Part shown: piece after piece, positions 1,461-62,441 of the stretch
How positions within the stretch are numbered: the stretch's first letter is position 1
Layout: every line of letters begins with the position of its first letter
DNA from: Chrysaora quinquecirrha
Lineage: Eukaryota > Cnidaria > Scyphozoa > Semaeostomeae > Pelagiidae
Length of the DNA stretch: 64,000 nt
Assembly (NCBI GenBank): GCA_014526335.1
Contig: JACTAT010000052.1
Span: 4,405,905 to 4,469,904 of the forward strand
Direction: 5' to 3'
The notes under the pieces: generated by a model
Told to the model about the DNA's origin: nothing
The model's database searches: none
What the model saw: only the letters and a program-made list of their open reading frames with translations
Translations under genes and position numbers: made by a program

Positions 1461-1510
1461 CTTCTCCCAATAGTGTCTCATCTTACAGGGAAACGGTTAG
1501 CCCCAGCTAT

Positions 1511-5494: not shown

Positions 5495-8400
5495 CTAGAC
5501 GCCAATTGGAACGGATATCTCTTCATCTTTGTGTCTGACTTTTCTAATAAAGTAGTAGCATCCGAATGCAGGTGTGCACAATATGGGAAACAGTGTGACC
5601 AATACACCAACAGCGATTGACCAGCCGGGGTATGGTACTTTTACCAAAGCCATCTGAATAGAAAAATTCAACGAATTAGTGTCTTTTTATAAGCTTAATT
5701 TTGACTTCCGCCAACGGCTGATAAAACTCATCATTTTCTGCAGGAAAGATACTTAGTATAGCTGCTAAGGAAATATTTCGTCAGTCTGCGTTCTCAACGG
5801 GCTTCTTAGCTCTGGGGGGCCCCCTTGCCCCCACTTGGCTACGCTACTGTATACCAGCAATGTTGTGTATGTTGTTGTAGCAGTGATAGCTACTACACTT
5901 TTCTTTAATAAGCAACAGCTTAATAAGCAACTAGGGCTGAACTGACCTTAACATTAAGCAACTTGAGGGCTCAATTGAATAACTGTAAGCAACTAAGAAG
6001 TCAAACAACCAAGCTTATTCTCTTTCTTGTGTTAGGAAATTGTTCTTCGTTCTTATGTTTTGCATGTTGAAGCTCGTTGGCTAACGTTTTTCCACTTACT
6101 GTCTCCCAAAAGTCATGTTGTAGGCCTAACAGATGACGATTTGACCCGCGAAGTCAGGGGTGGTTAGTAGGTACAAAAAATGTTAAGCAACGTTTAAGCA
6201 ATTTTGAGGGCGTAAATGTCTAAAATTTTAAGCAACTTTGAAGGCTGGACGAAAGTCAAATTTCTTATTTAACAAAAAGTGTATTTCACCTAAACTCTGG
6301 GTATAGTGTTCTGAGCCTTATATAACGTCATTCATTCCTGTTCTAGTTCTTTATTACAGAAATTCAGAAGCAATAAAACTGTAAAAGCTTTGTCTAGCCT
6401 TCCAAAGGGCCTAGTATCTAATTCTGTTTTATGTTCAGATTTGAGGGCTCTTTTGGGAAGCTTAATAGGTATAGAACCGTGACATATTACTACTTTATTT
6501 TTTATTTTTGGGTAAGCTGTTATTTCTAGCTTTTACAGCTAATTTAGGCCTACTATGCATGCCGCATCCAGGCATGGGACCCCTAGTTTAACGCCTCTTC
6601 GGAAGGACGGGCAGAGTGAAAGTCATCCATCTGGAAAGTCACCCATCCAGATTTCGACCTCACACAACCAAACATAATTCACTGAAATGATTCTATCTCA
6701 ATGAAAACAATAGCAGTTGGACATCAAGCCTCTTTGTCTCTTTAACACTGGCATAAACTGGTACACAGAGTCATTTTAGGAGTAGTATAAGTGAGTACTT
6801 GAAATCAACACAAAACACTAACCGATGAAGGTGAAATGGTGTATCAAGGCTGCTAGGATCTTAGTAGTAGGTTAACTAATCGAGACCTCGTGCCTGTCTG
6901 TGATGCTACGGCAGTCGGGGCCCAAACCTCTACCTCGCTGAGCTTCAGACACCACGAGATAGCTGGATTAGGCCACAACGCCACAACACATTTAAACTTT
7001 AGCATTACATCAGAATAGAGCACTATTCTTACCTGAACACGATCCCAGATCTCATACATCAGTGTTCCTTTAGCAGACTGTACAACCATTCCAATAAGCA
7101 GAGAAGCGATGACAATTGGTGATACGGCCACCCATAAAACGATCCATATTTTGTGAGGTCGTCGGCCAGTCATGAATTCAATATCTTCACAAAATCTAGA
7201 ATAGAAAGAAACTTGCAACATGTGCTTCATGGGGTACCATTTCAGCATTAAAATGGGTTTATAGAGAACGATTAGGAACAATATTTTGCGCAATTAAGTC
7301 GACTCCTTTTAAATAGCATGCCTTTGGAATGCTTAAAAATCATGGTTACTATTTTCGCTGTATGATACATTTATCCCAGGGGTAACTCCAATTAGTGGTA
7401 CAGGATGGGCCATTTTTGGGATACCCTTTTCAGGATGAAAAACAAATTTTGGGGTGACCTTTGTTGTTACCATCATAAATTTAGGGACGCTTTGTTGACC
7501 TTGCTATACATGTAACATTCAAATATTAAAGAACATCTTTTACATTGCTGTAAAAATAAATTCTAGGGTATCTTTCAGGTATTTTGCATAATTTTGGGGT
7601 ATTTTTATGAAACTTTGTAAATTTTTGGGTCATATTTTCAATACGAAAGTGGTTTACCCTCGTCACTGGCCTAATGAAGTTGCTACACGGGACATACATA
7701 GCTGTAGGTACTGAAATTTACCTTGAGACTCCATAGAACCAAACAATGAAGAGCAACTCGCAAAGGGCAATGACAAGCAGAGGTACATCAATACTGTAAG
7801 AATTGAACAACTGCAATACGTATTCACCGGAATTCTGAGTGAAGATCAAACCGAGCAGGAAGCTTGGAATCGCGATCACAACTGTAAAATAAAAGGAACT
7901 ATTCAGTACCAGCTAAAGAGTTTTGGGACAGTAAAAGCAAATTTAAACGGCAGATTAAAGAATTTGAGGGAAATGAAAGTCGCTAAAAATTTAAATGAAA
8001 GTCGTTTTCTTTGCCAGCTTAACTGTCGTAACGCAGTTCTGTCGGACAGGGCTGTCCATATAAAACCAAGCACTTAACCAAGATGATTTTCAAAAAACAG
8101 AGTTGGATTTCGAATTATCAGGCCAAAAATTGTTTTTGTAGGCGATATTTAAGGAAACTCTGAGAAATTTGGTTCTTTGTCAATTTTTGCCCAACTTAAT
8201 GCCTCTTTTCAGTGCTGTTTCCCCTTTTGCGCAAAACGTTGCTTATGACCTAATTTCTGGGCAAATGAAATCATGTTTTGCTGTGCGTAATTTTTCTCAG
8301 AATGTGTAGCTACACTTGATCCTACTCCTTTTGACAAAGCACCCCGCGGAATCTTTTGGCCTTGAGTGTCTCACCCGGATTCATTACAGTAAACGAGTCT

Positions 8401-11400: not shown

Positions 11401-14400
11401 CCCGGCTCTGGACGTATTTATTGGTGGACTTCTAATAAAGGGGACTTATTGTGGAGGGGGGTTTTGTACTGGATCATATTTAACATTTTTATGGGTCAAG
11501 GAAAGTGTTACAGACATTAGAAATTGAGCAATATAAGAACGTTTTTTCGTCACATGAAATTCGTAGTCGCATAGTAGCTAGTTATTAGTAGTTGCAAGAC
11601 ACAAGCTTGGGATATCAAACAGACTACCAATAAATTTCCTTCTCGCAGGCTTATTAGCTACTAATGAACTGTCGAGTGGCCAAGATAAGGAGGATTAATA
11701 AAGAAGGGGCCTATTTCAAAAAGCTGGCCTAATGGAGAGGTTTGAATTTTGCTGCACATTGCTGCACATACCTTGCCAGTTCCTGTGATACCTTTAATCA
11801 TGCAAGCAGATACGAGAACCCAGGCACCCAGAAGACAAAGCGTTAATTTCCAGTTGATTCCAGTTCTCTCATCAATACTATGCGATATCTGCAACGTCTC
11901 GGAATACCAATAATACGCCGTAGATCCAGCCTTTTCACATTGCTCCAAGGACTTTGTGAATGTTTTGTTAGTCAATGTGTCTTTTATTTGTGTTCTACAA
12001 AGCAAAAAAAGAAAAGTATGTTAAAGGAAAGGTATAGCTTTCGAAAATACGGAACTTATTGGAAAAACAGTTCGTAATCGCGGTAAAACGCATAGAGGAG
12101 TTAGACAAATGTTCTCTTTTTTTGAATCGTTTTCCTCTGTTAACTTGACTGCAACCTCCTCCGTCTCAAGGGCGATTAGCACTGTACACGAGGCCCTGGA
12201 CAAACCATTCAGCATTGTTAGTCATAGCTACATCACAAATCTCCTTATCAAACAAAACGTTTGACCGTTTGGTAACGTCACGAAATGTCATTTGGCAAAC
12301 ATTTTTGGTTTTGTCAAAAGATTTTTCCACAAGTGGCATACCACAACAAGTAGGTTCGAGTCCCACTTATTATGTTAATTAAGATAGAAAAAGTAAAATA
12401 TTGTTTTGGAAGCAAACTTTGAATGCATTGCGTAAAGGGGGGTTGTAGACTCTTAAAATATTTACCACTCTGCAAATATCATCGACAGCTATCAACAGCA
12501 AAAACCATTTACATGGGAAAATTGAATTGGATGACATAAAGCTCAAAATGGTTCTGAGCTACTTCTAAATCAGATTGGCCTAAACTAAATAAACTACGAA
12601 TTGTGGAGCGACTGTTCAGCAAGGGCTAGAAAGCAGAGAAGACGAAACTTACGTTGGACACTGAGACCAAGGCAGCGGATGTTGGAACGATATGAAGAAA
12701 TAATACAGACACCATGCAATGACAACATTATAAGTACAGGCTTGAAAGAAAACGGCAAATACGGATGTAAAGCCAAGTCCACTGGAGTATTTTGAAACTT
12801 TTCCCCAAAGTGGTATTGGACCAAGATGATGCCTCTGGCCGATGCTTAGCTCCAGGTAGAAAAGTGGCAGTCCTTCTAAAAACAACATGATCACGTATGG
12901 GATAAGAAATGCACCTAAAAGAGATGAAATCATGCTTGTTAGGAATCTCGCATTATATAAGCAAGGTAATTAACTTCATTATGCTATTTCATGTTGAAAT
13001 TGGAAGAGTGGGCCGACTCACTCCTTTAAAATCTCGTAGACCCTTGCTGAAGATTGAAAAACCCCTTTGGTACGCGCTTGTGTGCTTGTTGGCCTTAATG
13101 ATTTCACAGCAAATGCTTCAACTCATTCTTTAACAAGTTAAACGTGTTTAATAACAGTTTATTTGGAAGATTTTATAACCACGCTCGAGAAGCAATTCAC
13201 TCTTTGGAAATCTCGTACACCTTTGCTGGAGATCCCATTGTTTTCATGGAAATCCTTTGAAATCCCACTGTTCTAAAGGAAATCTGGTACAGTGCATATG
13301 AAGAATGAAATGCCCCTCGATCACGCTAGCAAACCCATAATCAATACTGTGGTGGGTACTCATTACTGTGGTGGTAATTTTGAAATACCGAATACAAATA
13401 CACAAAAAAACAGAAACAAGTTTCCGTGTCCGAGAAAATAATTCATCCTTAAATGTCCTTTAAAGTTTCTCCTTTTCTCAGAAAATCAATTTGGTGAGTT
13501 ATCTTTTTAATTCTAAAAATATGTTTAAGCTTGAGAGAAATTCCGCCTAAGAACCATTTAAGTTACAGCTTCAAAATGTGCTCTGGCTTATCCCCTCCTA
13601 AGCCTAATAATTTAGTTCGTTCAATGACAATTAAAGCATATCTGACATTCAAGATTTTGACTTTACCTTTCTATATCTTTTCTAACAATCAAATCGTTAC
13701 TTGTTATTAAATTTTCTTGTCTGGACTTAAATTGCTCATAAAAGGGGTCAAATCTGTAGCTTTTTGAAGTAGTATTTAAGAGTTTCAAGGTTGCAGACGA
13801 GGTTATCACTAATTCAGTGGTGGATTTTTTCAGTGACTGAAAAACAGTAACAAAACAAGTGTCAGAAAGGGGGCAAGAAAAAGGTAAAAAGCTGGGCACA
13901 AAAACTTTTCGATGTTCCTTTCGATGTTCTCTAACTACGATTATGTAATCTTACTGACGTCATCAGGTATTCTCTGTGGTTTTCATAAGACGAGGTGGGC
14001 TACTACAGTAAAAACCCGTAAATATGAACCGAATACATAAGACACAGTCTCTTTCGATTCTTAAAGAGGTGTATACCGAAATCAGGGTGTAGGTTTTGGA
14101 CATTAGGTCTAAAGCAATTGCAAGAAAAACAAAGCGTGGTTCAGGCTTCCCGAAAGCCTGAATGAATGTTTCGGACTGGAATAGGATGGGAAGGCCGGAC
14201 TGGAATAGGATGGGAAGGCCAAAGTCAAAGACATGGGGGGGTACATAAATGTCATGATATGAAAATGACTTCTTTCTACAGAATTATAGCGTCTATTTCT
14301 GTTTCCTTTCCATCAATAACCGCCGATTGAAGAGGAGCCTAAGTGTGTCTTAGAGGCCATTTTGAAAGTTCCACAGCGAATGTAGCCTGCGTGCAGACTC

Positions 14401-17400: not shown

Positions 17401-18215
17401 CATTCGCATTCGTACTCGCTTATGGTCAAGATCTCTTAGAGTTAGCTTCGAGAGAGGAAGCAAGCATTCGTTGTTATTCATTCGTTGTCATTCATTCGTT
17501 GTTATTCATTCGCATCATTCGTATTCTCGTATATCAGGTAGTTTTAATAATTTTTTTTCGCTGTATATAGTAATTGTTGCGTTTGTATATATTCACGCAG
17601 AGTTTTCAGTTTTGTTTCACTTCGATCTGCCATTCTTCAACGATTTAGTCCTGAACCGTCATCTGGGGTTCTTGAAGATTTGCTGATAGAACACAGCCCA
17701 GCAAAAGAAGTAAATACACTTCATGCTTGAAGCATCAATAAGTTCTGTTGAACTAATTAACTGCATTTTCCTATCATAATCTACAGAGAAACTATTATCG
17801 ATAAAACCATACACTAATGAATAAATAATGAAAACGCTTAATAGCTAACCCACGATAACGAAACACGTGAAAGAAGACGGTGAATTGAAATAGGATAGAT
17901 AAACCTAGAAAATTTCATACCTCCTCCATTTTTCTGCGCCAGCCACGGGAATCTCCATACATTTCCTAACCCTACTGCATACCCCACACAGGCGAGAAGA
18001 AACTCGGTTTTATTCGCCCAAGCATCACGTTTTTTCTCGGGTTTTTCTTCTTCGTCCTCGTCTTGCTTTAGGCTTAGTAAACAACGCTCCGTAGTTCGCG
18101 ACAAATTATCAATGTCTCCCATCAATTTCATTTCTACATCTTCATCGTCGTTCGTCTGATCGATGTCAGGGTCGATTTCTGGGTCTTCGTTGACGGGATT
18201 TTTCGCCACAGTCAT
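5495..18215 (-). CDS. SLC6 Na+-coupled neutral amino acid transporter (B0AT/NTT4-like)
   Basis: Ten exons join in frame: 18215-17921, 12914-12653, 11994-11772, 11308-11198, 10342-10134, 9982-9796, 8796-8595, 7881-7722, 7195-7033 and 5653-5495. They total 1971 nt and encode 656 aa plus TAG. All introns are GT-AG. An acidic cytoplasmic N-terminus of about 65 residues precedes TM1 with the unwound sodium-site motif [15 protein letters not shown]2-3 follow, then [12 protein letters not shown], a phrase typical of the SLC6A15-A20 branch. TM6 holds [11 protein letters not shown] and TM7 begins [17 protein letters not shown] and NYT sequons sit in extracellular loops. An extra loop of about 50 residues between TM6 and TM7 is also seen in that branch. 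The expected role is sodium-driven uptake of neutral amino acids at the plasma membrane. Start: the first in-frame ATG, at 18215. The exact paralogue and substrate cannot be read from the sequence. Confidence 0.93.
6820..6988 (-). repeat. tRNA-derived SINE, family A, copy 1
   Basis: Shares long stretches with 54516-54690, including GTAGTAGGTTAACTAATCGA and the ends around CACCACGAG..AGCTGGA. It lies in the last intron of the SLC6 gene. The B-box-like region is degraded in this copy. Confidence 0.7.
10386..11130. repeat. Purine-strand minisatellite (GGAAGAACGGAAGAAAA)n
   Basis: About 700 bases of almost pure A/G on the plus strand are built from irregular copies of GGAAGAACGGAAGAAAAGA in intron 4 of the SLC6 gene. 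The long open frames on both strands here (S/F/L/P-rich on minus, K/E/R-rich on plus) are by-products of the repeat and do not encode a gene. Confidence 0.9.
12328..12366 (+). repeat. SINE-like fragment with B-box word
   Basis: TCCACAAGTGGCATACCACAA followed by GGTTCGAGTCC, a pol III B-box. The same leading word occurs at 51012-51032 in the PRORP region, so this is a dispersed tRNA-related repeat. A fragment of the GTTTGACCGTTTGG foldback family (about 12250-12315) precedes it. Confidence 0.45.
14383..14687. mobile_element. Foldback MITE with 9-bp target duplication
   Basis: Terminal inverted repeats of about 60 bp begin TAGCCTGCGTG and extend through GAGTTGAGTTGAATCGAAATA. The element is flanked on both sides by CAGCGAATG (14374-14382 and 14688-14696), a clean 9-bp duplication. 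No coding capacity was seen. A 9-bp duplication fits a Mutator-like mobiliser, but this is inference. Confidence 0.82.
16635..17020. mobile_element. Foldback MITE, TTATAAGGAA family
   Basis: The ends are inverted: ACACGCATTTTTTTT then ATAAGGAAGT on the left, and ACTTCCTTATAAAAAAAAATG on the right. Internal AAGGAATT..CAGTACT words recur. Related partial copies are seen at about 15700-15800 and 25625-25725, and a sister family (TTATAAGAAAC) lies at 44385-44770. Confidence 0.65.
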
Positions 18216-19219
18216 TTCTAAGTCTTTTTTATATATCAAGTTCCTCTATTTTAGAAATCAACCACTGGAGCTCTGAACAACTAAAAAGAACAGGTTCGGT
18301 TAGATACCTGCTAGAGGCTTTCCACGTTAGCGAGACATGTTGCTTTGCGGGTGCGCTTATCTTCTTTGTCGAAGATGAAAGAAAGAATGTGCGAGAGCAG
18401 GCTTCATTCAAATAACGCAATATGTTAGTCAAGCATGAGTGAATGGTTTATTACTGTTATTGAAAATCCAGTGAATTAAAAATAGCTGTCTTTCAGAGTG
18501 CAACACACAGAAATCGCTGACGTATTGATATTCTCTCGCTAACTTTATTAAGTCTAACGTGTTATTCCGCGGGCCTATTCGACAAGAAACGAGAAAAAAA
18601 CGCGAGTTTAATTACGAGAATACGGCTTAAAGCTAACCAATTCAAACTGCCAATACCACATCAATTTTTTATACCATTTGACTTACCTTTGTACAGAATA
18701 AACTTTAAAAACTTCGACCGAAACCCCACAGGTTAATTAACCAACAAAACGGTTCTGTTATAATGAACAATGAACAAGTGCTCACGCACGTGATTTTGTT
18801 TGTGTCACGTGACACGCAGTTTTCTGAGCTGTTCAAATAACTATTCCGCTACGTTAGAGTTAACTTAAAAAGTGTCTCGAGAAACGAAAGGGCTTTAATA
18901 TATATACCAGAGAGACTTAAAAACAAAATTCCTTCCTTAACAAGAATGGAATATGATCAAGGATACGTTGAAACGCGATTTCGATTCCTATCATCTTACG
19001 TACACTTGTTTTCAAAAACAACCATTAAAAAATCACACATCAAGGCCAGCCACATTCTGTAACAGAAACTTTATTTGCATTGTATGCAACATGTGACGGC
19101 AAGAAAGATTGTGAAAAACAATAACAACAACATCCTACTATTAAACGGTGTTTATGATTATTTTTTATGTGAAATCTGTTATTTGTCGAGGGTGTATCAG
19201 TTTTTAAAAAAACGTACGA

Positions 19220-22848: not shown

Positions 22849-23184
22849 TCATAAATCAAAATCAAGTACTTTGCCTGGATTTAGAATATTCTTTGGATCA
22901 AATGATTTCTTTATAGTCTTCATAAGATTATAAGTTTCTGAGCCAACTTCTTCTTTGAGAAGTTTCAACTTGCCCAACCCAATTCCGTGCTCTCCAGTGC
23001 ATGTCCCTTTCAAGGATAACGCATGCCTGAAAGGTAAGTCAAAGTTGAGAATTTCAATGACGGGATAAGAATATATTGTGAGGGTCAGTGTTTTGTCCAA
23101 GAATTGGTGGTGATGATGAGGATGAAGATGATGATTTTGATGATGATAATGATTATTATGATAGTGATTATGATGATTATGACA

Positions 23185-23216
<32 letters not shown>

Positions 23217-24404
23217 GATAAGGATTATCATGAGGATGATGATGATGCTGATGATGACGATGATGATGATGATAGTGATAATGATGATGATTATTATGGT
23301 GATGATTATGGTGATGATGAGGATGATGATGATGATGATGATGCTGATGATGATGATGATGAGGATGATCATGGTGACAATGATTTCGACCCTCTAAAAC
23401 GTCGGTCCAGAGAAATAAGTGGAGTCCTAAGAAAAACGAGGGTTGGGAAATTTTCGAAAAACTAATCGGTGGGGATGGACAGCAATGTACCCAAGAGAAC
23501 GTGACAAAACACTCTTAAGTGTTACGTGTGATTAGGGCAGGGGGTTCTGTTGCTTGCCACTTATAAGGTTTTAGGATTTTTCGAACAGGATGCGTTGTTC
23601 GATTGCTACAAAATGGATTTACTTAACGTATCAATCCAGATTTTAGATTCTGCTGTACCTTGCGAGTCTTTCATGAAAGTGTTTCGCTTCGGATATTTCA
23701 TCCGGGTCATTTGGATCCACAGTGACAAAGCAATGGAAATTTCCGTCGCCAACATGACCAAGGATCGGAGCTAAAAAGCAAATGTCCAAGATAAGAACGA
23801 GGTACAGCAAAAAGAAGACGTCTACCGGATCTTACTGTGGTTTGACTCTACTACAAACACAATAGACACAACTACAACAGCATTGAGATGAAATGATCAA
23901 CTAATCGATGACGTACTTAATAGATTCGAAGCAAGAGCATCTTCTTTAGCACATGTTATTAACTCAGGAAGATTCGATATCGGTACACAGACATCAGTAA
24001 CTACACCCTGGAATTCAAAAATAGTCACATTTAATATCATTGACATTGAACGGCAAGGAATTCAACCATTTCCTTGAGTAATTTGCAAGTTAAAATCCCT
24101 TTTTAGCTAAAATGTTCACACGAAACTTGCTTGCAAAGTCGTTGTTACTTAGTTAGCTAGCTATGTAGCTCTTTAGTTATTCAGTTGCTTAGTTAGTTTA
24201 TTCATTTGATAGCAAAAAAATAGTTGCTTAGTTATTTAGTTGGTTAGTCAGTTAGTTAGTTAGTTGGTTAGTTAGCTACTTAACTATTAAGTTATTCAAT
24301 TAGTTAGTTAGTTAGTTACTTTGTTAATTAATTAGTTAGTTAGTTAGTTAGTTAGTTACTTATTAATTAGTTAGCTAGCTAGCTAGTTTGCAGGTTAGCT
24401 AGTC

Positions 24405-45193: not shown

Positions 45194-45958
45194 TTCGATC
45201 ACAGCAAGATAATCTTTTGATAGGCCTAATTTTCTTTTGACGGTTCACAGCGTGCTTGGTAAGAGGCGAAAAATCGCTGCTAAAAGCACCAGTTTATAAA
45301 ACTCAATCTTAACAAACATTTCTAGAATTCATCTTTGATACCTTGAGGTTGAAACGATGACGGAGTGACCAAGATATTGTATTTTTAATCGATGAAAATG
45401 ACACCCTTCTTGCTTCGCCATTTTAGGTAGTCAAACGTGAGCAGTGTTTCACCATGCTGCGTGAACCCGAGGTTTATTTGCAGATGTGCAAACAGGTAAA
45501 GGCTGGTGGGACAAAATCGACATGCACCAATCAGAGAGCGATAACTGCAACTCGTGACCCTCTTAGAGAATGGTTCAAACTGGAAAACAAGTGGGAAGGA
45601 AGAAGTGATACAATATTCGCCCCACTTCCAGATCCTCCTTAACCCACGCAGACACATTGTCTGAGTGGGGCTTGTATAAATCATTTCAACTGGGAGGGCA
45701 CTGGAATTCGGAGAATTATTGAAGGAATCAGGGCTTTGGGCATCACATGATTTCAAATTCAAACAACAAAGAAACATTGGCAGCAAGGAGGGAGCACAAC
45801 AACAGCAACATCGATATATAGCAGCACATGGAGGCAAGTAGTAGTAGAACACACCACACACCACAGTGACTCAGGGACTTGACAATGATTTGACTGTGGC
45901 ACAGTCCAAAAGTCCTGGCACTGCCTCTGACTTGATGGAAGGTGAATGTGGAACGAGA
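45194..45958. promoter_or_regulatory. Likely shared USP10/PRORP promoter interval
   Basis: The two genes start on opposite strands with 765 bases between their ATGs, so this interval must carry both transcription start regions unless upstream untranslated exons lie elsewhere. A minus-strand frame at 45385-45864 (159 codons) and a plus frame at 45454-45642 lie inside but show no family features. No TATA box could be assigned with confidence. Confidence 0.5.
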
Positions 45959-48900
45959 ATGCAAAAATCATTTAGTCTGAAAGCAATCTGGAACAAGATT
46001 CCTTGTGTTTTCAATACAGCATCATGTTATTCAACTGTTATTGGTCAGAAAAACTCAAAATGCTGTCAAATCTACCTCCAAAATGGCCATACAAGGGCTA
46101 GGTTCGCACACGTGTTTGCTAGGGCTAAGCAAGCAGTTAGGCCTGTTACTGGAGTAGATGTAAAATTTTCTTCTATTGGGAATTTCCGTCAAGTATCTGC
46201 AGGCAACCCAGAAGCCATAAAAGATGAAGCAAAGTCAAAGATCGAAGAATTAGAAACAAAAAATCTTACATTAATTTCAGATATTATAAAGGATTTTAAA
46301 AGTTTGGGAACTCAAGGAACAAATAATGCCAAGATTCAAAAGTGTATCAAGTCATCAAAGATCCTGAGAGCTGAGTTCTTAAAATTAGCCAATAAAGAGA
46401 AATCCAGAACGACAATGATAGACAACTTAAACTCTTTGCTGTATTGTTATCATACTTGCAATTTAGCAGAAGAATTCAATGAAACATTCAACTTGATGGA
46501 AGCTAGCAAAGTCTTCAATGAAGCAACATTTTCAGTTCTTATTCGTCAGAAAGTGAAAACTGACAGCTGGAGGAGTGGTGTGGAAGTAATGAAACAGATG
46601 ACAGAAACAGGATTTGAGCCTCATTCTAGAACTTATCATAGCATTATCCTAAAGTGTGTTGAGATGGGTGACTGGGATGATGCACTAAGTCTTTTCAAAG
46701 AGATGAAAAATATAGAAATAGTATTCAGCGATGATTTCTACAGCTCTTTGATAAGCATATTAATTCAAAAGCAGAGCACAAATAAAGATTTTTTGCCAAG
46801 TATACTGAATTTGCTAGAGGACACTGGCTTTACATTTGGTCCAAAGTCATTCAACCAAGCTAAACATTGGTTTTCAAGGTTAGGTAGTTTGCTTTGATTT
46901 AGGGTTCTACTTCAGCATTCAAGGTGAACAGAATGGTAGAAGTTCTTGACACCTGGTTTCCATAAATCATGGAGGAATGAAAAGGATTAACAATCATTTG
47001 CGATTATCCGTGTTGCTTTCCTAAATTAATGGAACATGCTGTCACAACTGACAATAATCCTTTCTGTGCGAAAAATTCAGAGCATTTAATTTAGCCAAAT
47101 TAAGAGAGTCAGGTCAAAGTAATTGACAACATGTATTGTTCTCGTTGGAGAACCATGAAATGATTTTGCAGGCTGAATCCCAGACCATCACCAATCCCGG
47201 GAAACCTACACATTTGAGAGTGGATGGAAGATGGAAGAAGGGATCAATGACAATTGCAGAAGATCACCAATCCCTCTACAATTTAATGGAAGCCAGGCTA
47301 AAGTTTCATCTACAGCTCAAATATTCTCATGTTCCTCGTTGCATTCAAGTTAACATGGATGATATATTGTTTCTAGGGATGAGAGGTGGTATGCAAGAGT
47401 CTCCTCTGTAGATCCAAGGTAAAGGTCTTATGCTTCTTCTATATGTTTTCATTATTTTTGATCATTTGTAATCAAGATACCCTTTGTAAGCCAGATATCA
47501 AGTTCAAAAACTTTGGTTCAACGTAACCAGCCAGACAAACAACAATGGATTTCATACACTGTCATTCCCTTTCATGAATGAGGTCATTATAGAAAACATG
47601 ATCGACAGGTTGTGAGTCTGAATCTTGATCAGATCAATATAAAAACCAACAGTGGAATTGTACATCATTTGAGGTCAGAGCGAGTACCCATGGTATCATT
47701 TCTAAAAAGTTGCCCCTGGGCACAAGAATCTCCGAGTCTACAGCAGCTGGAAAGTTGCAAGCACCTGGTGTCCTGGATCAACAAATAAAGAATGTTCTGC
47801 TTGTTACCTTCAAGACGGTCTACAAGCATATTATGGCCAACATCAGCAAGTGTGAAAAGTCCGTAATCAATATTACGAGATTTAATGCTACCATTGTAAT
47901 ATGACATCTGCAGAATTTGCAAAGGCCCATTAACAAAGATGTGGCACTTTCAGGATCACCAGAACCGACAAGGACAACAGACAGAAGATAACATGAAATC
48001 TGCAGGTTGCAATGTGACACTGCCTTTCTTTCCCATGAACTTACGAGTCTGATCACATCATATCTGCACCTCACGAAATTGGCAGACTCAGTGAAGAAAA
48101 CTGGCTCTTGATGTGCTTCATTTGCTCACCAATAGATAATAAAGTCCCATACTCCTTCCTTTTGCCAGGGAAATGTCTTGTCTTGTTGTGATTCGAACTG
48201 GGCACACAGCATCTGATTCTGGGGATTTAGAAAGGCAGATTCTTTAGAGAACCTCTCTGCATCATTCAGTGTTGATTCTTCAGTCCAAGTGTCAGCTATA
48301 GTTCAGATAATATTATGTGCCTGCTACTTAGCAGACCAACTATTGTAGAATCCAGATGTTGCTCCTTGTCCATGAAAGGAACCACTTCCTCTTCCAATTG
48401 AGAGAGACCGATATTAACTGTGTTTTCAGACATGTTCTTGAAGCTGTACAGCACAAGTTGCACCAGATGCGGATCTATAAAAAGGCACAGACCAACATTA
48501 GCGCATATGCCAGTTAACTGCATAAGGCTGATTTACGGTTTACTGTGTTGTAAGACATGTTCTTGAAGAAAGCTCAAGTTACACCAGATGCTATTCCTGA
48601 TGCTGCTCCTCAATCATGAAAAGGGACCACTCCCTCTTCCAAAAAGAGACAGACCAAAATTAACACGTATATACTTATCCTCTGCATTAGGCTGTTTATG
48701 GTCCAATGTGTTGTGAGACACGGTCTTAAAGTTCTACAAGAAGAAAGCTCAAGTTACACCAGATGCTGCTCCTCAATCATGAAAAGGGACCACTCCCTCT
48801 TCCAAAAAGAGACAGACCAAAATTAACACGTATATACTTATCCACTGCATTAGGCTGTTTATGGTCCAATGTGTTGTCAGACATGTTCTTCAAGTAACAC

Positions 48901-51900
48901 AAAAAAGTTTAAGTTGCACCAGTTGCTGCCCTTAATGCTGCTCCTCAATCAGGGACCACTTCTTCTTCCAAAAAGAGTCAGCACAACATTAGCACATATG
49001 CCAGTCAACTGCATAAGGCTGTTTTACAGTTAACTGTGTTATCAGACATTTTCTTGAAGTTCTACAAGTTCTACCAGCTGCATTAGGGTGTTTTACGGCC
49101 ACTGTGCTGCCAGTCGTGTTGTTGAAGTTGTACAAGATGAAAGCTGAAGTTACAACAGATGCTGATCTTGATGCTGCTTCTCAATCATGAAAAGGGAGCA
49201 CTTCCTCTTTCACAAAAAGATGGACCATCATTAACACATTATACCGATCCACTGCATAAGACTGTTTTATGGTCCACTGTGTGGCCAGACATGTTCTTGA
49301 AATGAACTTGCACCAAATGTTGCTCTTAATGCTGCTCCTCATTCAAGAAAAGGGACAACTTCCATTGTCCAAACAGAGAAAGACCTACGTTAACACATAT
49401 AAGAATCCACTGCATTAAGCTGTTGTACAGTTCACTGTGTTGTCAACTATGTTCATGACGTTTTACAAAAGGAAAACTCAAAATGCACCAGACACCGATC
49501 CTGATGCTGCTCCTCAGTCACGAAAAGGGACCACTTCTCGTTCTACATGGTACATGGTACACTTGAAAACAAAGCCACAACATGCGCATGCATGAAAACT
49601 GGTACATTGTCACAAAAAGCTGATACACCGGTACATTGATGATAGCCGTCATCCACCAATCTGTAACACTCTCCCGTGTCACGCAGGGAGACACGGCAGC
49701 AGTAGACACAAGGACACGGGGAAATGATACCATAAAATCCAAGCTACCAAATCAGAGTTATCGGAAAACTTCTGTGGTTTGTAACTTTTATTTGCCACTG
49801 CCTTGTATGTTATCACTATTCATAAGGTATACCAGAGGGTATACAATATGGGATAAATCAGATAGGACAGGCTCAGAGTGCGTAAATTGTATTCGAACCA
49901 CTCTGGTCTTCTTGAGTAGGGTATATGTTTCTTCCAATGGCATTGCAAGGAATGGGAAAGGATTATTCTTGGATGCCACGATTGGTTTGATTTCTTCCAA
50001 AACTGCTTGACAAGAAATCTGACGACGCTTCCACCATGACTTAAATTGTTCAGATGAATAGCCACTATTTCCTCTAAGTCTAGTAGCCCATCCAAGGTTC
50101 TTCCCATTAAATTTTGTGTCAGTGTCCAGAAAAGTGCCCAGCCTTTCTCCGTACAAATATACGCACAGCTGGAAAACTTCCTCACTCAACAATGAATAAC
50201 AGGCGTGTCTTGGGTGTGGCAGCATGAGATCTTTTTCCTGACGCCGTTTAGTGTCTCGGCTATCGAGTCTTTATCACTACCGTAACGTATGGGACTGTGA
50301 ATACAACTTTGGCGTGTATTACTTGAAGCATTTATGGCTATTGAAGGTGTTGTGTTGTCGTGTTATAATCTAGCTAGTTTGTTGTGTCAGAAGCTCAGCG
50401 AGGTAACGGCTCGAACCCCAGCTACAGAAAGCGGTCACAGCCTGGTTGAGGTCTCAATTAGTTAACCTACTACTGAGATCTTTGGGGGTGATACTAAATA
50501 CTCCATTTCCCCTTCACCTTCACTCTATTGCACTAAGCTGTTTAACTCAAGTGAACGGTATTCAGTTCCCTGTTCATGCAGCCTATGTTCGAAACCCATC
50601 CACTTAGGATGATAGTACTGTTTTGACTGTTTTGTTCCGACACTATAGTGTTTAGTGATCTATTATGTTTTTTTATTAAGTGGCACTTGCAAGTCCTGTG
50701 GATTGCCTTTGAAAGAACTAAAGCTGCCTGAACCGGTCAGAACCAGTCTACAGCAAGGTCTTTTCGAAGTTGCTGAAAATGCAATCGTTGATGCGGAAGG
50801 TACCCCAGATGCTAATCCACTGAAACAGTTACTTGATATATCTACTGAAAAGACGAAAGGCAGCAGGATACTCAAGCTAAAACAGCTTATAAACACATCT
50901 GGGCCTTATGATACCGTACTTGATGTTTTGAACATTGCTTATCTAAGAAATAAAGGTTTCAATTCCTTTCAGGTATGTGATTTTTCCCTCTCTGTAATTT
51001 TATGATTTCTCCACAAGTGGCATACCACAATAGATTGGATTCGAACCTGGATTGCATGACCGTAGAGCCTACGACACTGAGCTTAGAGCTCAGTGACATT
51101 GCCGAGTAACTCTTCAAGTCATACAGCCCAAGGCTCTCTTCGCATTTGAGTTTGTATTTCGGCTATGTCGAGCCTTCTTCAGCACCATACATATTGGGTA
51201 TATATTTTGTAGTGCATAATAACGCCACTCTTATGGATGGGTCATAATTCTTGCATATGTCTGACGCAGTGGGTATGCACCACAGGGATAGGTTGGTACA
51301 GGTTGGTAATGAACCAACCTACTACCAAACATAATAAACCGCCCTAGCAAGACGTGACTACATCAAGCTCAAGCATAACCAGGAATCTTATAGTTCTATA
51401 AGCTCCCTGAGCATAGCTCCCTTGAGTGCGTGAAGCGGGCTACAGAGACCCTTCTTGAACCGTTAGATAGAATTCAATGTTACTTTTGGCTAAGCCTTAA
51501 CGCTCTATTTCATGGGAACACAAGCCTTGAACTAACTGCCGTTCATTTCTATAGGTGAAAAGAGTGGCAAAGCATTTTCTCGAAAAAGGAGACAGGCTTC
51601 TTGTTATATGCTCAAGTCCGTTGTTATCCAGTCTGCTTAGGTGTGCACCTGAACCGTCACAGCAACATCTGGTTGATCTTCTGCATTTCTTCAGAAGACA
51701 AAACTGTGGAATCTTCTTTGTTGACGATGAGTAAGTTTGCATTGCTTACTTTTTGATGAGCGTATGGAGTAAAGGGGAAATGGTGTGTTTAGCGCCATCC
51801 GCTAGGTTTAATGTCGCGGTCCGCAAAGTTTAATGAGACCTTGACCCTAGCTATAACGCTACCATTCTTGCCAAAATGGTTGGAACATTTCATAAAATTT

Positions 51901-54295: not shown

Positions 54296-57200
54296 TCATC
54301 TTTTGTTCTTTATGGTTCCAGGGGGTTCCATACTGTTGTCTGGTGCAAGTTTAAAAACTGGCGAGGGCAGTGCCCCGCCCTCTGCCTCGACCTAACGGAA
54401 AGCAAAGAAAGGTTTTATAACTTGCGAGAAACATCGGAAACATCTTTGGACAAGATTTTTTCGTCAGACAATCCTTAGAGTATGAACGTCAGAAACAGAC
54501 CGAAACAACTGACTAAGGTGAAGGTGAAGGTGAAGGTGAAATGGTGTTTAAGCGCCAGTCGCTAGGATCTCAGTAGTAGGTTAACTAATCGAGACCTCGA
54601 CCCTGGCTGTGACGCTACCGTGGCTGGGATCGAACCCTGACCACACTGAGCTCTTGACACCACGAGTCAGCTGGACTACACCACGACGCAACAGCACCAA
54701 GGCGGCAGGGGGTTGTCACAGACACGAACAGAACAACAAGTCAGAGACAACAAACAGAAAGATCCCTGCAAGCCCGGTATGGACATGTGTTTGAGATGTA
54801 TGAACTTTCCACTGTTAATATAATAGAAACTTACCCCTTTTGTTGACAACAGTGGACCATTCGTTGTTTTCCTTCTGGAACGAAAAAATAGATGACGTTT
54901 CAATTATCATGAATAGACCTTTCCAAAGAGGTCTGGGTCGGGTGCGACACTTTTCTGGAAAATGGTAGACATTTCTAGCAAGGGAATCCTCTCCGTGTGC
55001 AACGACTGGAATTACGGTCAGTTTAGGAAATTTAGTTCAGCAAATCTTCCTCCATACTCACGAATAATGGAAGAAAAAGAGAGTGAAGGAATCTGCAACA
55101 ATGTTGAAAATGTATGCAGAAATTCAGAGGCATACAAATTCCTCTTACCGGTTGGACAGAAAGTCCTTGCATAGATGTTTCCATACTCTTCGTTGCCGTT
55201 GAAAAGGAATCTGGTGGCAACAGCACTGGCTGAGCAGCTGCTGCTCCTGGCCTGCCAGGACTTTGGTGGGAGGCTGCCGCAGTCGGCCTGGCAGGACTCT
55301 GATTGGCGGCTGCAGCTCCTGGCCTCGAAGGGCTATGATTTGCTGTTGGCAATTGACCAGCCTCGTACAAAAGCCCCACTTCATGTGCTTGCCTCATCTT
55401 CTTAAGATCATCCATCTGTCTGATAGGCCTTGGCTTACTGAGATGACTTGCTTCATCTAAAATCAAAACAGGGGCATTTATTACGGAATTCAAGCTTTAA
55501 GGCCTGGCTAAACTAGGAGACATGCCACGCGCAACATTGATGTCTCCTAGGTGTTTAGCCACCCCGGAAACTTTGTAGCACGCGACAAAATTTGTAACAA
55601 GAGACGCACAAATGTTTCTGAAAGAAACAGAAACTTTTCTTGTCTTGTCTCCGCGACATGCAAATGACTTTGGGGACATGTTGTTCGCTTGCCACTCGCA
55701 TGTTTACCCACGCTGGGAGACACGCCGAGTAGGCAGTGTCGCGCGCGACAAGTCTCCTAGTTTAGCCATAGCTTTAGAGGGTTTTTTTAATTAAAGGGAT
55801 GTTTATTTGACTGGGCATTAAAATGATGTATTCTGCTTTTAGCGTTTTACTCAAGCGTATTTTACTCTAAAAATCGAGCATTTAATCTTTCATTTTTCAT
55901 AACATAAGCCAATAACATATGTAACAGGGGCTGATTTGTTAAAAAAGTCAGTAAAAATATTAAAGCCCCTTAAAATTATACAAAAAGATTTCAAAATTGC
56001 GTCTGAAATTAATCGTCCGAAAATAAAACGTCCGAAAATTTCACGTCTGAAATTTTTAGGAGTCGCTGTTTATTGTAAACAAAGAATTGATACAATATTG
56101 CTCGACTTACCTTCAGGCAGTTTCGCTATTCCGAGCAACGCCCATCTCGCAGCGTCTTGCATTGCAGATCGTTTCGTTCTGTGGGTGCCATGGCTTCTGA
56201 ACACCTTGTTCATATTTTCAAACCTACATTCGTATGAAAAGCCACCATAATTAGATCCCATATGTGACTCGATGAATTTCGGTGCATTAATCCTGTTCTT
56301 TTGACAATACTGATTCAATGGGCTTTTATAGTCGACGTTTGCACCTATAACAAGGAGAAACTTCATTATTTTGGTTTGGTACCGCAGGAGAAAGGCTTGG
56401 GACAAGCGCCTTTTAACATCTTTTAACAATAATTCTGTTATATTAAACACTAGTCAACCATTGGCTGACTATGTGATGAAGATCGAGAGGTATGTGCAAA
56501 GAAAATGTAATATTTCTTGAATAATCATTTCGTATTTTATATGTAGGTTAAAAACCTTGGCGGACTAGATAATCCAAGTCCGACCGGTCCGAATTAACGA
56601 GAGGCTGGATAAACGAGAGGTCGGATGAACGAATAAATACTGTAACTCTTCTGAAAACAGCAATTCTAAGCAAATCTGGAGGTTGTGTTATGATAAATTT
56701 GCTGGCCCGCCCCTAGATCCCCCTTGATTGCCGCACCTTCGCTGCACTAAGCGCCTTACACACATATTGTTACCTCGTTAAAATTTCTGTTAACTCTTTA
56801 TTGAAGAAGATTCCCTTAGTTATCTTTCCAACTCTACATCACTGGCTTTAACTGTACCTTCAACTGATTTAACTTTGACTAATGAATGCACAGCTGCAGC
56901 TATGGCCGAGTAAGGACGAAGATAAAGGTTCATAACCGAATTAAATTCGCTGCATCATAACTTCGACGTATAAACTATTTGGAGCAGCGCTGGAGTCCAA
57001 AGTGTTGCGTCACCCTTGCTTTGGTACATACAATAGACGCATTACTGATACTTATAACAAGAAAACTAGATCTTTAAAACTTACTGTCAATTTTTCCCGT
57101 TGGTGGGGGATAAACTGCAAGAATAGCCTTGATCTTGGCTTCTCTCTCATCCTCTGTCCAATCTTCAGGATTGTCTGACCTGAAAATGTATCCATATTCT

Positions 57201-60200
57201 TATTTTCATATATAAGAAAAACATTTCGGAAAAGGGCCAAATTTCATCGATAAATGTCTCAGATTTCAACAAACTTCTTTCTGCAAAACGGCTTCAAAAG
57301 ATCATTACTAAATACTAACTAAACATAGATTTTTGTGGCTTACTTCTTGAAGTCTTCAGGTGTAAGGCCCATTTCTTTAATTTTTTGTTGCTGTCGGTTA
57401 TATTTTCGTTTGTAATTCTTTTTCTGGGTAGCCGTCATTCTAAAAAAAACAATGCCATTGATGAATATTGTCATTTCCTATGATTCATGGGTCACAAAGC
57501 ACCAGCAACGTGACAATATCATAGAAAGTGCGGTAGATATCAATCTGAAAAAAAATCAAACGTGAGTGAGGCGGGCCGTAGAGTAAAATAGCCTAGGGAA
57601 CATTAATCAAAAGAAAGTAGTTATTTCCACTTAAACTTTTTAAAACATTATGCTGACATTACATCCACATTGACTTGTCGTTCCTAATTTCATTTCGGAA
57701 ATAAGAATTGCTCCTAAATACGTAATTTATTAACGTGAGTTGTGAGTGATCGCTCCTGCAAATGCACTCACGGCAGCTTTTTACTCGCAAAAACGCACTC
57801 AAATTTTCTCACGAAAAGGCCTGAGATGAAAACCAATGCTCGACTGAAAAAGGCATAGAGTGGGCACAACACTGGGGTCCCAATGCACTGGTGGTGCTTG
57901 CTAGCCACTGCCTCCAATGTCCCTGGGCTATACTAGTGTACCCATACAAATATAAAAACAAATGAAAACAACCTGTCCCAATCTGCTGGCCTCTCTTGCA
58001 ACAAAATCATGCTTTCTGGTTCTTCGTTGACCTCTTCTTCCTCTTCCTGCAGCTCCTGTTCCATTATTATCTGATGATGTTCTTCTGCTTCTATGTATCA
58101 ACAGCAGATCAATCAGTAGTACAGTCAGTCAGCCCCCTCTATCTCAATAAACCTCTGTCTTTCTAAGCTTCTTTCTAACTTGAACTGAAGTTGCAATCTG
58201 CTAGCAATAGATGGTGGCTGCTACCTAATTTTCTTTCTGTATCTCAAACTTCTCTGTCTCACAGTGGTGCAGCAAAGGGGGCAAGTGCCCCCCCCCCAAG
58301 CACCAAGTCATAGGGGTGCAAAATTCTAGAATGTTTTTAGTCAATTGAAAAAATCATAGCGTGACTTAAAATGTGACAAAAATGGAATGTAGGTCTGCTG
58401 CTGGTCATACCCCCTTTCACCAAGTTATAAAAAGTTATGGTCATAAATGAAACATAAAGATTCAGTCTTTGGTTCTTAACTTTTCATTTTTAGTATTCTC
58501 ATAAATACCTCAAAACTTTTCTATCAACACTAACTGGCAATGACTTACTATGGTAAGACTAATACATCACTGAAACAACATGCTAAATACATAAACAATG
58601 ACAACAAAACAAAAATATAAACAAATACCAAAACATACCAGCCTCCCAGTCCTCACTACTTTCAGGCTTATTCCATTGTGGGTGATGTTCGACAGGCGGC
58701 AGGTAGTGCCTCTCAAGGCCGCTGGCTATGAAACCAAAAATACAATTATTGGCATACGGCATACTTCATAAGCATTGAGACAATTAAAGGGGGCTATTAT
58801 AGATTTGCAGCTTAACAGCTTCAATGCTCAATTCAAGTACAGAATACAGATTTGACAATGTTTTTTCTATGTTTTGCAGCTTCAGAAAAAGAAGGGTCTT
58901 GCATCTTTTTTCTCTATTGACATCCGTTTTCAGCCTCTTTTACAGCCTTGTTGGAGTCAAAGGAAACAATTTATAATACACAGAAAGTAAACACTGGTAA
59001 CAGTAACACTGGGGAAAAATTTTCATAGTAAACAGAAGTTTGAAGTATTCTGTCTCAAAAACAACAAAACTTTGTCTTGAAACTTCTGAAAAGTGTTTCT
59101 TACATTGTAGTTTTTGAAGAGAGCTTTTGAAATATTTTGCTGAAAATTTGGGAGGCACTGTTTCTCAAATATGCCTATTTTTCTTTGCTTTGTTTTAGCT
59201 ACCTCTTCTCAAACTATCATATATATAATTCTTTTTTAAAATTCCTAAACTGAGAAAATCCAGCTTTCTGGCTGTTTTTTTATAGATCCTGGCATATTGG
59301 AGATTCAGCAGCGGATTGCCAGATAATCTGGATAATCCAGTACAACCCTAATCATCTTTTGACCAAAACATCCATAAATCTAATTTTAACTAAAATTTTT
59401 TAACTACTGTCTGATTGGATAAAAACAGGAAATTTATTCATACCTCTCTCGATATCTGCTTGCACCACATGCTAAAAGATGATAATATTCTTTATCAATA
59501 AATAATCATTTTTGTTACAAAGAGACAGTTTTAATAAGATCATGGGTGTAAACAAGCAAATAAAGCAAACTTAATTCTAAATTTTAGCTGGAATAGAAAA
59601 ACCTACCTTATCAGGACATTCTATGAGGTGTTTCTCAAATATTCTTTCTGGCACATGATGTATTGCATTAAAGGGGCAAATTTTGAAACCAGTACCTCCG
59701 TGATTCTGGAAAATAAACAAAAAATATTTCATTTTATAGTTCCATGACAGAGCAGGGTTGAACAAGATGCTACTCCTTTAAAGGCAAGACCTTAAAAGTT
59801 CTTGAAAAATCAGAGATTTCGGCCCCCAAGCTTTGCTTCGAGTCAAAGTTGTGACTTAACTCACATAGAGAGATTGCTTATTTAACAAGGTGTAAAGGAA
59901 TCTATGATGATGGTAGTTTCCATAAACCACAAGTTTAAATAACATTAGTAAAAGGTGTTGTGGTAGGGGCATATGGGCAACATTTGTATCGCATATGCAT
60001 ACAGAAAACAGTACTCTGCATGCAAAATTGCACTGGAAAAAGAGATTGAGATTACATATATATTTAAATGCCAAATCATAAGTGCACTGTACTGTAGCAT
60101 CATTGAGGGTTATTACCCTATGATCAGGGTAAATCTGTTATGATATCTCATTGGCTGGAAACAATTGCATGCAACATAATGACAGGGCATCATTAAGAGT

Positions 60201-60758
60201 GGGTGCTTACCTATTGGAGGGGGTAAGTACTTATTTAAGGGGGTGGCCACTTTTGTGTTATGAGTCCTCAGGTCTTCTGACAGCAGGAAACAGGCAACCA
60301 CAAAGGCCAGCAGTGCACTAGTATTCTCGATCAAGTCATGTAGTCCAACGCTAAGATAGCTATCGGAGCACCGCACCTTGCATTAACCCATACTGTATTA
60401 GAGGGCAAGTGTTTATATTATACTGGGTAGCTATCCTTGCTCCTTGGTTTTCATATTGGATAGACCCATTTACACAACATATACCAAATAGATAGCAGAG
60501 ACAATAGAAATTTAGCCATTTCACTATTTACTTCCCGTTTCACTTCCAGTTTAAAACTTGCCTTTTTAAAATTCAGTTTGAGAAAAACACAAAAACAAAA
60601 TGTGCACGTTTATCTATAGTTCTTCTTACCCGCCGACATTTGATCAAATGCTGCATCATCCGACATGCCCTCAGATCAGGGACGTTGCAGTACGGACAAA
60701 CATACATGGCCTCTGGGTCGCTGCCATAAGGCACGATGCTTCCCTGCATATTACTCAT
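54296..60758 (-). CDS. GTSF1-like CHHC zinc-finger protein fused to a dsRBD-like domain
   Basis: Eleven exons join in frame: 60758-60630, 59705-59607, 59471-59444, 58725-58639, 58090-57973, 57439-57344, 57179-57085, 56344-56111, 55456-55149, 54874-54835 and 54357-54296. They total 1296 nt, 431 aa. Finger 1 spans residues 21-41 (CPYCNVPDLRACRMMQHLIKC). Finger 2 is a full CHHC finger (C53, H59, H69, C73; ICPFNAIHHVPER), matching the GTSF1 layout KCRK-NH..CPFNARHQVP. Acidic W-containing segments follow (SSEDWEA, RPADWDR), as in the Piwi-binding tail of GTSF1. A basic Q/K stretch (KKNYKRKYNRQQQKIKEMGL) comes next. Residues about 218-295 look like a dsRBD (PLNQYCQKNRINAPKF..., GTHRTKRSAMQDAARWALL). 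Exon 9 adds three SPxRPxAAA repeats. GTSF1 proteins assist Piwi/piRNA silencing, and a similar RNA-linked role is inferred here. The fusion rests on phase-correct splice sites without transcript proof. Confidence 0.85.
54516..54690 (-). repeat. tRNA-derived SINE, family A, full copy
   Basis: The minus strand starts GCGTCGTGGTGTAGTCCAGC (A-box-like), has GGGTTCGATCCCAGC (B-box) about 45 bases on, then a non-tRNA body and a (CTTCAC)n tail (GAAGGTGAAGGTGAAG on plus, about 54516-54540). Other copies lie at 6820, 50391 and 51765. It is in the last intron of the GTSF1-like gene. Confidence 0.8.
55501..55769. mobile_element. hAT-like MITE with 8-bp target duplication
   Basis: Both ends carry TGGCTAAACTAGGAGAC read inward, and the flanks are AGCTTTAA (55493-55500) and AGCTTTAG (55770-55777), an 8-bp duplication with one mismatch. 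The interior is rich in GACACGC/GCGCGCGAC words. It lies between exons 8 and 9 of the GTSF1-like gene. Confidence 0.82.
58930..59165 (-). repeat. Diverged relative of the 29326-30406 transposon
   Basis: Read on the minus strand it aligns with 29560-29690: GTGCCTYCCAAATTTTC.., then TTTCAA.., then TTTTTGAGACARAATA.TTCAAACTT. Here the frame stays open for 72 codons (KFSAKYFKSSLQKLQCKK, QSFVVFETEYFKLLF). The copy at 29.6 kb has stops, but the same residues can be read in pieces. It lies in an intron of the GTSF1-like gene. Confidence 0.6.
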
Positions 60759-61020
60759 GATTAATTTCGATAATTAAAACCTAAAACTAAATTATACTGA
60801 AGGCCTAAAAAAGTAAATTGTGCTCCAGTCCGAAGAAGCGTCTGTCATTCAGCATCCGAAACAATGAACGAATCAAAGAGCGCGCGGTTCTGTCGTGTTC
60901 TTTGACATGCGTGTTGGCACTGGCTCACTTTGCGCATGAGCCCGCAAAGGCTTATTTGTAAAAAAGGGAACGAACAACGAACAATGATTCCCGAACGTGG
61001 GAATCTTATCTCTCGGGCCT
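60515..61020 (-). repeat. Tandem duplication unit 1 (promoter plus first exon)
   Basis: This unit shares high similarity over its whole length with 61030-61640, including intron start, exon 1, 5' UTR (AATTTCGATARTTAAAACC, GAAGAAGCGTCTGTCATTCA) and a CpG-containing upstream part (GACATGCGTGYTGGCACTG, GAACGAACAACGAACAATGA). Confidence 0.88.
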
Positions 61021-61029
61021 AATCATTTA

Positions 61030-61640
61030 TTGCCATTTCACCATTTAACTTCCCGTTTCACATCAGTTTAAAACTTGCCTTTTTAAAATTCATTTCTAAA
61101 TTTCAAAAGAATTCAAAAGTTTGAAAGTTAGCTTTAACCCTTTAACAGATAAGGCAAGATGAGATGAATATGCGGAGAAAATAAATTCGAGAAAAGAAAA
61201 GCAACAACAAAACGTCCACGTTCAGTCTTTCTTACCCTCCGACATTTCTTTACATGTTGCATCATTCGACTTGCCCTCACAACATGGACGTTGAAGTACG
61301 GACAAACATACATGGCCTCTGGGTCGCTGCCATAAGGCACGATGCTTCCCTGCGTATTACTCATGATTAATTTCGATAGTTAAAACCTAAAACTAAATTA
61401 TACAGAAGGCCTAAAAATGTAAATTGTGCTCGAGTCCCAAGTCCGAAGAAGCGTCTGTCATTCAGCATCCGGAACATGTGAACCATATGTGCTGTTCTCA
61501 TTGGCTGTTCTGTGTTCTTTGACATGCGTGCTGGCACTGACTCGCTTTGCGCATGAGCGCGTAAAGGCTAGCCTGTAAAAGACGGAACGAACAACGAACA
61601 ATGATTCCCGAACGGAGAATCGTATCTCTCATCGTTTTAA
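61030..61640 (-). repeat. Tandem duplication unit 2 (promoter plus alternative first exon)
   Basis: Second copy of the unit at 60515-61020, head-to-tail in the same orientation. It contains the alternative exon 61236-61364. The outer edge abuts the (ATT)n tract and retroelement fragment beginning at 61640. Confidence 0.88.
61236..61364 (-). CDS. Alternative first exon of the GTSF1-like gene
   Basis: 129 nt, 43 codons, ending CGG AGG followed by a GTAAGA donor in the same phase as the other first exon, so it could splice to 59705-59607. The encoded start MSNTQGSIVPYGSDPEAMYV matches exon 60758-60630 at all but one residue (Thr for Met at 4). The finger differs: C21, H27, H37, C41 (CPYFNVHVVRASRMMQHVKKC) gives a canonical CHHC set, while the other copy has Pro at 27 and Cys at 24. 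Use as an alternative promoter/exon is inferred from the splice site and open frame. Confidence 0.7.
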
Positions 61641-61736: not shown

Positions 61737-62438
61737 TCAATTTTCAAGGACTTTTCTCAGGATCCGTGCAGATTGCAGGATTACAGTCTTCTGCATCTCT
61801 TCAATTCTTGTCTCAATTCCCAGTTCTTCTACTCTCCTCTTGATGTCTTTTGGTGGTGTTCCTAATGCCCCAATAACTATGGGTACTACTTTTACTTTCA
61901 TATTCCATAACCTCTGGAGTTCTCTCTTTAAGTCCTGGTATTTCTCAACTTTCTCTTTCTCCTTCTGCTCTATCCGGGTATCATATGGGATGGCAAAATC
62001 AACGATAATGCAGTTGTTTTCTTCCTTCTTGATCAAAATTAAGTCTGGCCTTCTAGCTTCAATTACATGATCGGTCTGGATGGTAAAGTCCCACAGTACC
62101 TTGCAAGTATCATTTTCAACCACACTTTCTGGCTCATGGTTGTACCACTTCTCGCTTACATGTACCCCAAACTTCCTACATATGTCCCAGTGGATTCTTC
62201 TCCCGACCCAATCATGTCTATTCTTGTATTCTTTCTGCGCCATTTTGCTGCATTCGCTGATGAGATGATTAATAGTTTCATCAACCTTACCGCAGATTCT
62301 ACATCTACTGTCCTCCTGTGTTTTGTCGATTTTGGCTTTGATGAGGTTCGTCCTAATGGCTTGCTCTTGAGCTGCTAGGATGAGAGTCTCGGTCTCCCTC
62401 TTGATGCCACTATTTTTCAACCATTTCCACCTTTCCAA
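61737..62438 (-). pseudogene. R4/Dong-like non-LTR retrotransposon 3' end (zinc knuckle plus restriction-like endonuclease)
   Basis: A 233-codon frame begins in the distal part of a retrotransposon ORF. It holds a CCHC knuckle (CRICGKVDETINHLISEC), then a restriction-like endonuclease core with RPDLILI and CIIVDFAIPYD, and ends PIVIGALGTPPKDIKRRVEE. This order is typical of R2/R4/NeSL-type elements. The RT is absent, so the copy is 5'-truncated. (ATT)n tracts lie on both sides (61641-61670 and 62442-62516), which fits the known preference of Dong-type elements for TAA repeats. It lies just upstream of the duplicated GTSF1-like promoter. Confidence 0.8.
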
Positions 62439-62439
62439 C

Positions 62440-62441
<2 letters not shown>

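Follow-up and report, generated by a model that had tools for sequence, protein, structure and literature searches.

The window analysed here, a 64,000-nucleotide stretch of DNA from the scyphozoan Chrysaora quinquecirrha, holds on its minus strand what appears to be an animal-type gene with a GTSF1-like start running on into a dsRBD. The spliced model comprises 11 exons and 1326 coding bases including the stop, and encodes 441 amino acids; every internal exon boundary carries the flanking AG and GT, and all phases are compatible. These junctions and phases bear out the original prediction of eleven phase-matched exons with outer limits at 60758 and 54296; the 431 aa it gave for the product was ten residues short. 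Features are listed below from the 5′ end of the gene, with splice donors scored by a simple matrix drawn from general knowledge.

61025–61630, minus strand: tandem duplication, copy with exon 1b (nucleotide alignment)
61236–61364, minus strand: exon 1b, putative alternative first exon, encoding 43 aa and an intact CHHC in finger 1; donor AGG/GTAAGA, score 5.0
60510–61014, minus strand: tandem duplication, copy with exon 1a, covering the upstream region, exon 1a and the start of intron 1 (nucleotide alignment)
60630–60758, minus strand: exon 1a, putative alternative first exon, finger 1 of the form C-x2-C-x12-H-x3-C; donor CGG/GTAAGA, score 5.0
59607–59705, minus strand: exon 2, canonical CHHC finger 2 (best PF05253 stretch 51–74; splice sites)
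59444–59471, minus strand: exon 3, 28 bases, within the colinear mouse GTSF1 alignment (splice sites)
58639–58725, minus strand: exon 4, W103 and W112 of the PIWI-binding region (alignment to mouse GTSF1)
57973–58090, minus strand: exon 5, acidic region, with a weak donor CAG/GTTGTT at the fusion point (score −1.6)
57344–57439, minus strand: exon 6, basic Q/K segment starting A-ATG (splice sites and phase)
57085–57179, minus strand: exon 7, acidic, with an EDW motif containing W193 (splice sites and phase; motif)
56111–56344, minus strand: exon 8, one dsRBD in a phase 1-1 exon (PF00035; phases)
55149–55456, minus strand: exon 9, proline/alanine repeat tail (sequence and splice sites)
54919–54954, minus strand: exon 10, uncertain, with a weak donor (score −1.9, 82.1 percentile)
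54296–54391, minus strand: exon 11 with the stop codon, uncertain, followed by AATAAA at 54266

The proline/alanine repeat tail that had been predicted is indeed encoded, by exon 9, and the two exons beyond it are uncertain. Reading past the exon 10 donor gives VYS and a stop, and a stronger donor is found at 54835. Between exons 10 and 11, positions 54524–54698 are repeated at 6826–6989 and 50346–50523 with 76–77% identity; this repeat holds what we take to be a tRNA B box-like sequence and may be a SINE.

Several other coding remnants and exon-like frames were detected elsewhere in the window. A reverse transcriptase fragment (868–1482, minus strand; RVT_1, E 5.3e-9) lies within 220–1972 and is flanked by opposite-strand frames (220–633, minus; 1388–1972, plus) with 137-aa ends that are identical by eye, and the whole reads as an element with inverted copies. 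Exon-like frames of sodium:neurotransmitter symporters occur at 11664–12020 and 17841–18245 on the minus strand (PF00209, E 3.3e-13 and 2e-16), and at 22852–23514, also minus, a histidine-rich stretch, probably a translated repeat or intron, runs into the C-terminal domain found in FAD-linked oxidases (PF02913, E 5.7e-19). On the plus strand, 45848–46897 and 50649–51005 encode PPR repeats (PF13041, E 1.6e-9; PPR_long above cut-off) followed by a frame whose PRORP match is sub-threshold, and may be exons from a gene for a protein-only RNase P.

In a search of the sequences of solved structures, for which the query was the first 329 residues of the model in its exon 1a form, residues 13–119 matched mouse GTSF1 (6x46) with E 3.3e-17 and residues 14–116 matched a second GTSF1 (9nhb) with E 5.3e-9. 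The mouse GTSF1 match is colinear across exons 1, 2, 3 and 4 and the start of exon 5, hence these exons are tied together by homology, and the GTSF1-like start of the original prediction is upheld. Passages of PMC9385479 describe finger 1 of mouse GTSF1 as binding RNA via R26, R29, K36 and K39 and the protein as binding PIWI via W98, W107 and W112, and report that GTSF1 speeds PIWI cleavage, both RNA and PIWI binding being needed. All four of these RNA-contact positions are kept in our alignment (R30, R33, K40 and R43, the last with Arg for Lys) and are present in both forms of exon 1. Two of the three PIWI-binding tryptophans named in those passages are also kept (W103 and W112, equivalent to mouse W98 and W107), the position aligned with the third (mouse W112) being non-aromatic; W152 and W193 occur further along the model, outside the alignment. 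Because the RNA- and PIWI-contact residues are largely kept, we infer the same basic role as for mouse GTSF1.

The two forms of exon 1 differ in finger 1. Exon 1b, which lies 606 bp upstream of exon 1a and outside the span of the original prediction, has an intact CHHC and together with 7 residues of exon 2 matched PF05253 at E 1.3e-5 (25.4 bits, cut-off 21.1). The exon 1a finger reads C21-P-Y-C24-N-V-P27 ... H37-L-I-K-C41 (spacing C21-x2-C24-x12-H37-x3-C41), with Pro27 at the position of the first His ligand and an extra Cys24 three residues past the first Cys. It matched PF05253 at E 0.34, in the C-terminal half only (profile positions 13–25), and its other profile matches, to zf-Di19 and the ZNF462 C2H2 finger, were sub-threshold. 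The Pfam search found two PF05253 stretches, and so two tandem CHHC fingers, in the model with exon 1b and one only with exon 1a. Of the two CHHC fingers originally claimed, that of exon 2 is thus canonical, and the finger 1 of the first exon then chosen (60630–60758) is not CHHC.

Exons 1a and 1b lie in head-to-tail copies (60569–61014 and 61183–61630) with 383 of 424 aligned bases identical and 46 gap positions, and the duplication extends through 60510–60578 and 61025–61095 at 90.3% identity over 72 columns. An upstream region, an ATG and a good donor are present in both copies, so that 1a and 1b would serve as alternative first exons, each with a separate promoter. An arrangement in which exon 1b is spliced into exon 1a was rejected, as the bases before the 1a ATG form no acceptor and frame 0 through 1a, read from just past the nearest upstream AG, gives VLIIEINHE and a stop. 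Just upstream of exon 1b and adjoining TTA repeat runs, a 234-aa frame (61737–62441, minus strand) matches zf-RVT below threshold (24.9 bits, cut-off 27.5) and is perhaps a retrotransposon tail.

Divergence between the two first exons is uneven. Codons 1–23 are identical at 68 of 69 bases, more than in the flanks (Fisher p 1.9e-5), suggesting constraint or gene conversion, and codons 24–43 are identical at 48 of 60, compared with 306 of 384 in the flanks (Fisher p 1.0). Per-site differences (pN 0.087, pS 0.158) come from 13 changes and decide little, and this pN/pS comparison gave no sign of positive selection between 1a and 1b.

The zinc ligand replaced in exon 1a is called absolutely conserved in the sections of PMC9539491 available, hence a proline at this site suggests that the exon 1a finger has either lost function or become a C2HC form. 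The importance of finger-1 zinc ligands is also spoken for by a homozygous GTSF1 p.His33Asn tabulated among infertile men in part of PMC12766463; mouse His33 is a finger-1 ligand by alignment numbering, human and mouse numbering being assumed to agree. The first outcome, in which exon 1a is a decaying duplicate and the gene uses exon 1b alone, is a serious possibility and only slightly doubtful, given the lost ligand described in that section of PMC9539491 and codons 24–43 that have diverged as much as the flanks. However, the ATG, open frame, good donor and RNA-contact residues are all retained in exon 1a, which has a GTSF1-like HLIKC where exon 1b has HVKKC and whose new Cys restores four candidate ligands with C2H2-like spacing. 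The near-identity of codons 1–23, whether from constraint or gene conversion, also argues against simple decay.

The dsRBD of the original prediction was confirmed by profile search, with exon 8 alone matching PF00035 at 33.6 bits against a cut-off of 23 (E 6e-8), which rules out a chance resemblance. This was the only PF00035 stretch in the 441-aa model. By sequence, the best solved match of exon 8 was DRB4 (E 0.0091, weak), followed by PKR (0.2) and R2D2 (0.55). One single-sequence fold model of the exon, poorly packed and of low confidence, showed helix, three strands and helix, and no dsRBD occurred among the 50 matches listed in its structural alignment; another low-confidence model had no clear first strand and gave a Foldseek list headed by dsRBD chains, all with non-significant E-values. 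DCL4, Loquacious, PACT and HYL1 were among the Foldseek neighbours, all without significance.

The canonical RNA-contact motifs of dsRBDs are the helix-1 Glu, GPxH and KKxAK. By eye these are partly kept in exon 8, with Gln for the Glu, GSNY for GPxH and KRSAM for KKxAK. Some dsRBDs of Dicer partners act as protein-docking domains, and the substituted motifs, together with plant DRB4 as the closest solved relative by sequence, albeit a weak one, are consistent with an exon 8 that keeps the dsRBD fold and serves protein docking rather than RNA reading. Helix 2 nevertheless remains basic (HRTKR), as does the exon overall (12 K+R, 6 D+E), and we consider a docking function unlikely, though of appreciable weight.

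Joins 5–6, 6–7 and 7–8 are defined solely by splice signals and phase. The phase delivered by exon 5 is the only one in which exon 6 is open; read on in that phase, exon 7 supplies the single base that exon 8 requires, and exon 8 is open in the resulting phase alone. A scan between exons 5 and 8, with thresholds set with exons 6 and 7 in view, listed only these two exons and an exon 7 variant shorter by 5 bases. The EDW motif of exon 4 recurs in exon 7, and searches found no homology for exons 6 and 7. One transcript spanning the locus is likely, and we are fairly confident that it represents one spliced gene.

The exon 5 donor, at the point of fusion, ranks at the 84.0 percentile among the region's GT sites; on the same simple matrix, exons 1a, 1b, 2, 3, 4, 6, 7, 8 and 9 have donors scoring 3.1 to 8.6, and only the exon 10 donor is weaker than that of exon 5. 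Reading through the exon 5 donor would add 13 residues (RLFSFVFIFVWVH) before a stop at 57933, giving a GTSF1-sized protein of 166 aa, and AATAAA is found downstream of this stop at 57731. The start of exon 6 is an ATG that has A at −3, and a further in-frame ATG occurs shortly upstream of exon 8, in the 56070–56453 frame. Each of these signs would suit two neighbouring genes, one an ordinary GTSF1 (about 166 aa) that stops in intron 5, the other a dsRBD gene whose start lies at exon 6 or just before exon 8. We consider this arrangement improbable, however, as the phases of exons 5 and 6 agree (one chance in three), the gap between them is only 533 bases and the 13 read-through residues resemble translated intron. 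Furthermore, AATAAA is about as frequent as expected by chance (8 in 8.2 kb, with 0.74 expected per kb), and a good, pyrimidine-rich acceptor stands directly before the exon 6 ATG, hence a separate dsRBD gene would have to include an unseen 5′ exon.

Both sets of signs would be reconciled if one locus gave two products, a short GTSF1 that retains intron 5 and is polyadenylated near 57731, and a long dsRBD form spliced from the weak donor. This version of our best explanation, in which the weak exon 5 donor would act as a switch, would accommodate the donor, the GTSF1-sized read-through product and the AATAAA as well as the phase agreement of exons 5–8. Each sign of two products is, however, within chance when taken alone, and this form appears rather improbable.

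On balance, we favour the explanation that a minus-strand gene for a GTSF1-family PIWI cofactor has acquired a set of C-terminal exons with one dsRBD, and that its upstream region and first exon have been duplicated. The model resembles GTSF1/Asterix in its two N-terminal fingers (CHHC with exon 1b), its retention of the basic residues for RNA contact and of two of the three tryptophans that bind PIWI, and its acidic central region. It differs in its paired first exons, of which one lacks the first His ligand, and in its predicted length of 441 aa, which includes a dsRBD and a proline/alanine tail. By comparison, GTSF1 proteins have a mass of about 19 kDa and, regardless of species, a C-terminus that is likely unstructured according to the accessible text of PMC9539491, and Paramecium Gtsf1 is described in the same way in PMC11724296. 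The 441-aa model departs from this size, whereas the 166-aa read-through form would fit it.

Other families were a poorer fit. Only three eukaryotic proteins with CHHC fingers, GTSF1, U11-48K and TRM13, are named in the passages of PMC9385479. U11-48K and TRM13 share the CHHC finger with the model, but GTSF1 is far closer; membership of U11-48K was rejected, as it matched finger 2 only at E 0.13 compared with 3.3e-17 for GTSF1. The Pfam search found no methyltransferase domain in the model. Dicer partners of the HYL1/DRB type have two tandem dsRBDs. The dsRBD of exon 8 is shared with these and other Dicer partners (HYL1, DRB4, Loquacious, R2D2, PACT and cnidarian Hyl1-like), yet here a single dsRBD, the one PF00035 stretch of the 441-aa model, is joined to GTSF1-type fingers, and no second dsRBD was found. 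In Nematostella, according to an extract of PMC9098223, a HYL1-like protein acts in miRNA biogenesis.

That such a fusion is undescribed, as originally claimed, agrees with the review PMC9539491 in its accessible portion. CHHC fingers joined to a dsRBD were likewise absent from titles and abstract starts of the open-licence literature, among the matches listed, an absence that carries little weight with most of the subscription literature outside that search. No fusion of this type was found in the available parts of PMC5312943 and PMC12766463, and no relatives were found in viral and prokaryote sequence collections. The GTSF1-dsRBD fusion is probably new within the known GTSF1 family, if the transcript is confirmed.

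Judging from the kept residues, the fingers of the favoured gene would bind RNA and its acidic tryptophan region would bind PIWI, as in mouse GTSF1. The dsRBD, carried on a flexible linker, may add a second contact, most likely with duplexed RNA (a piRNA-target duplex or structured target RNA) and less likely with a protein partner, the piRNA-target duplex being the nearest candidate. The GTSF1-PIWI module could thereby be held on particular RNA. The sequences of the locus allow finger 1 to be supplied as CHHC from exon 1b or as a C2HC variant from exon 1a, and both may be used. A more speculative and distinctly improbable extension is that two promoters choose between the CHHC and C2HC RNA-binding fingers, so that the same PIWI-binding and duplex-RNA-reader parts are aimed at different RNAs.

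If the fusion is real, one gene would link a PIWI cofactor and the domain type used by Dicer partners, and a natural combination of GTSF1 with a duplex-RNA module would make it testable whether gripping the piRNA-target duplex in the same chain aids cleavage. The paired first exons would, in turn, be a natural experiment on the zinc ligands needed by an RNA-binding finger.
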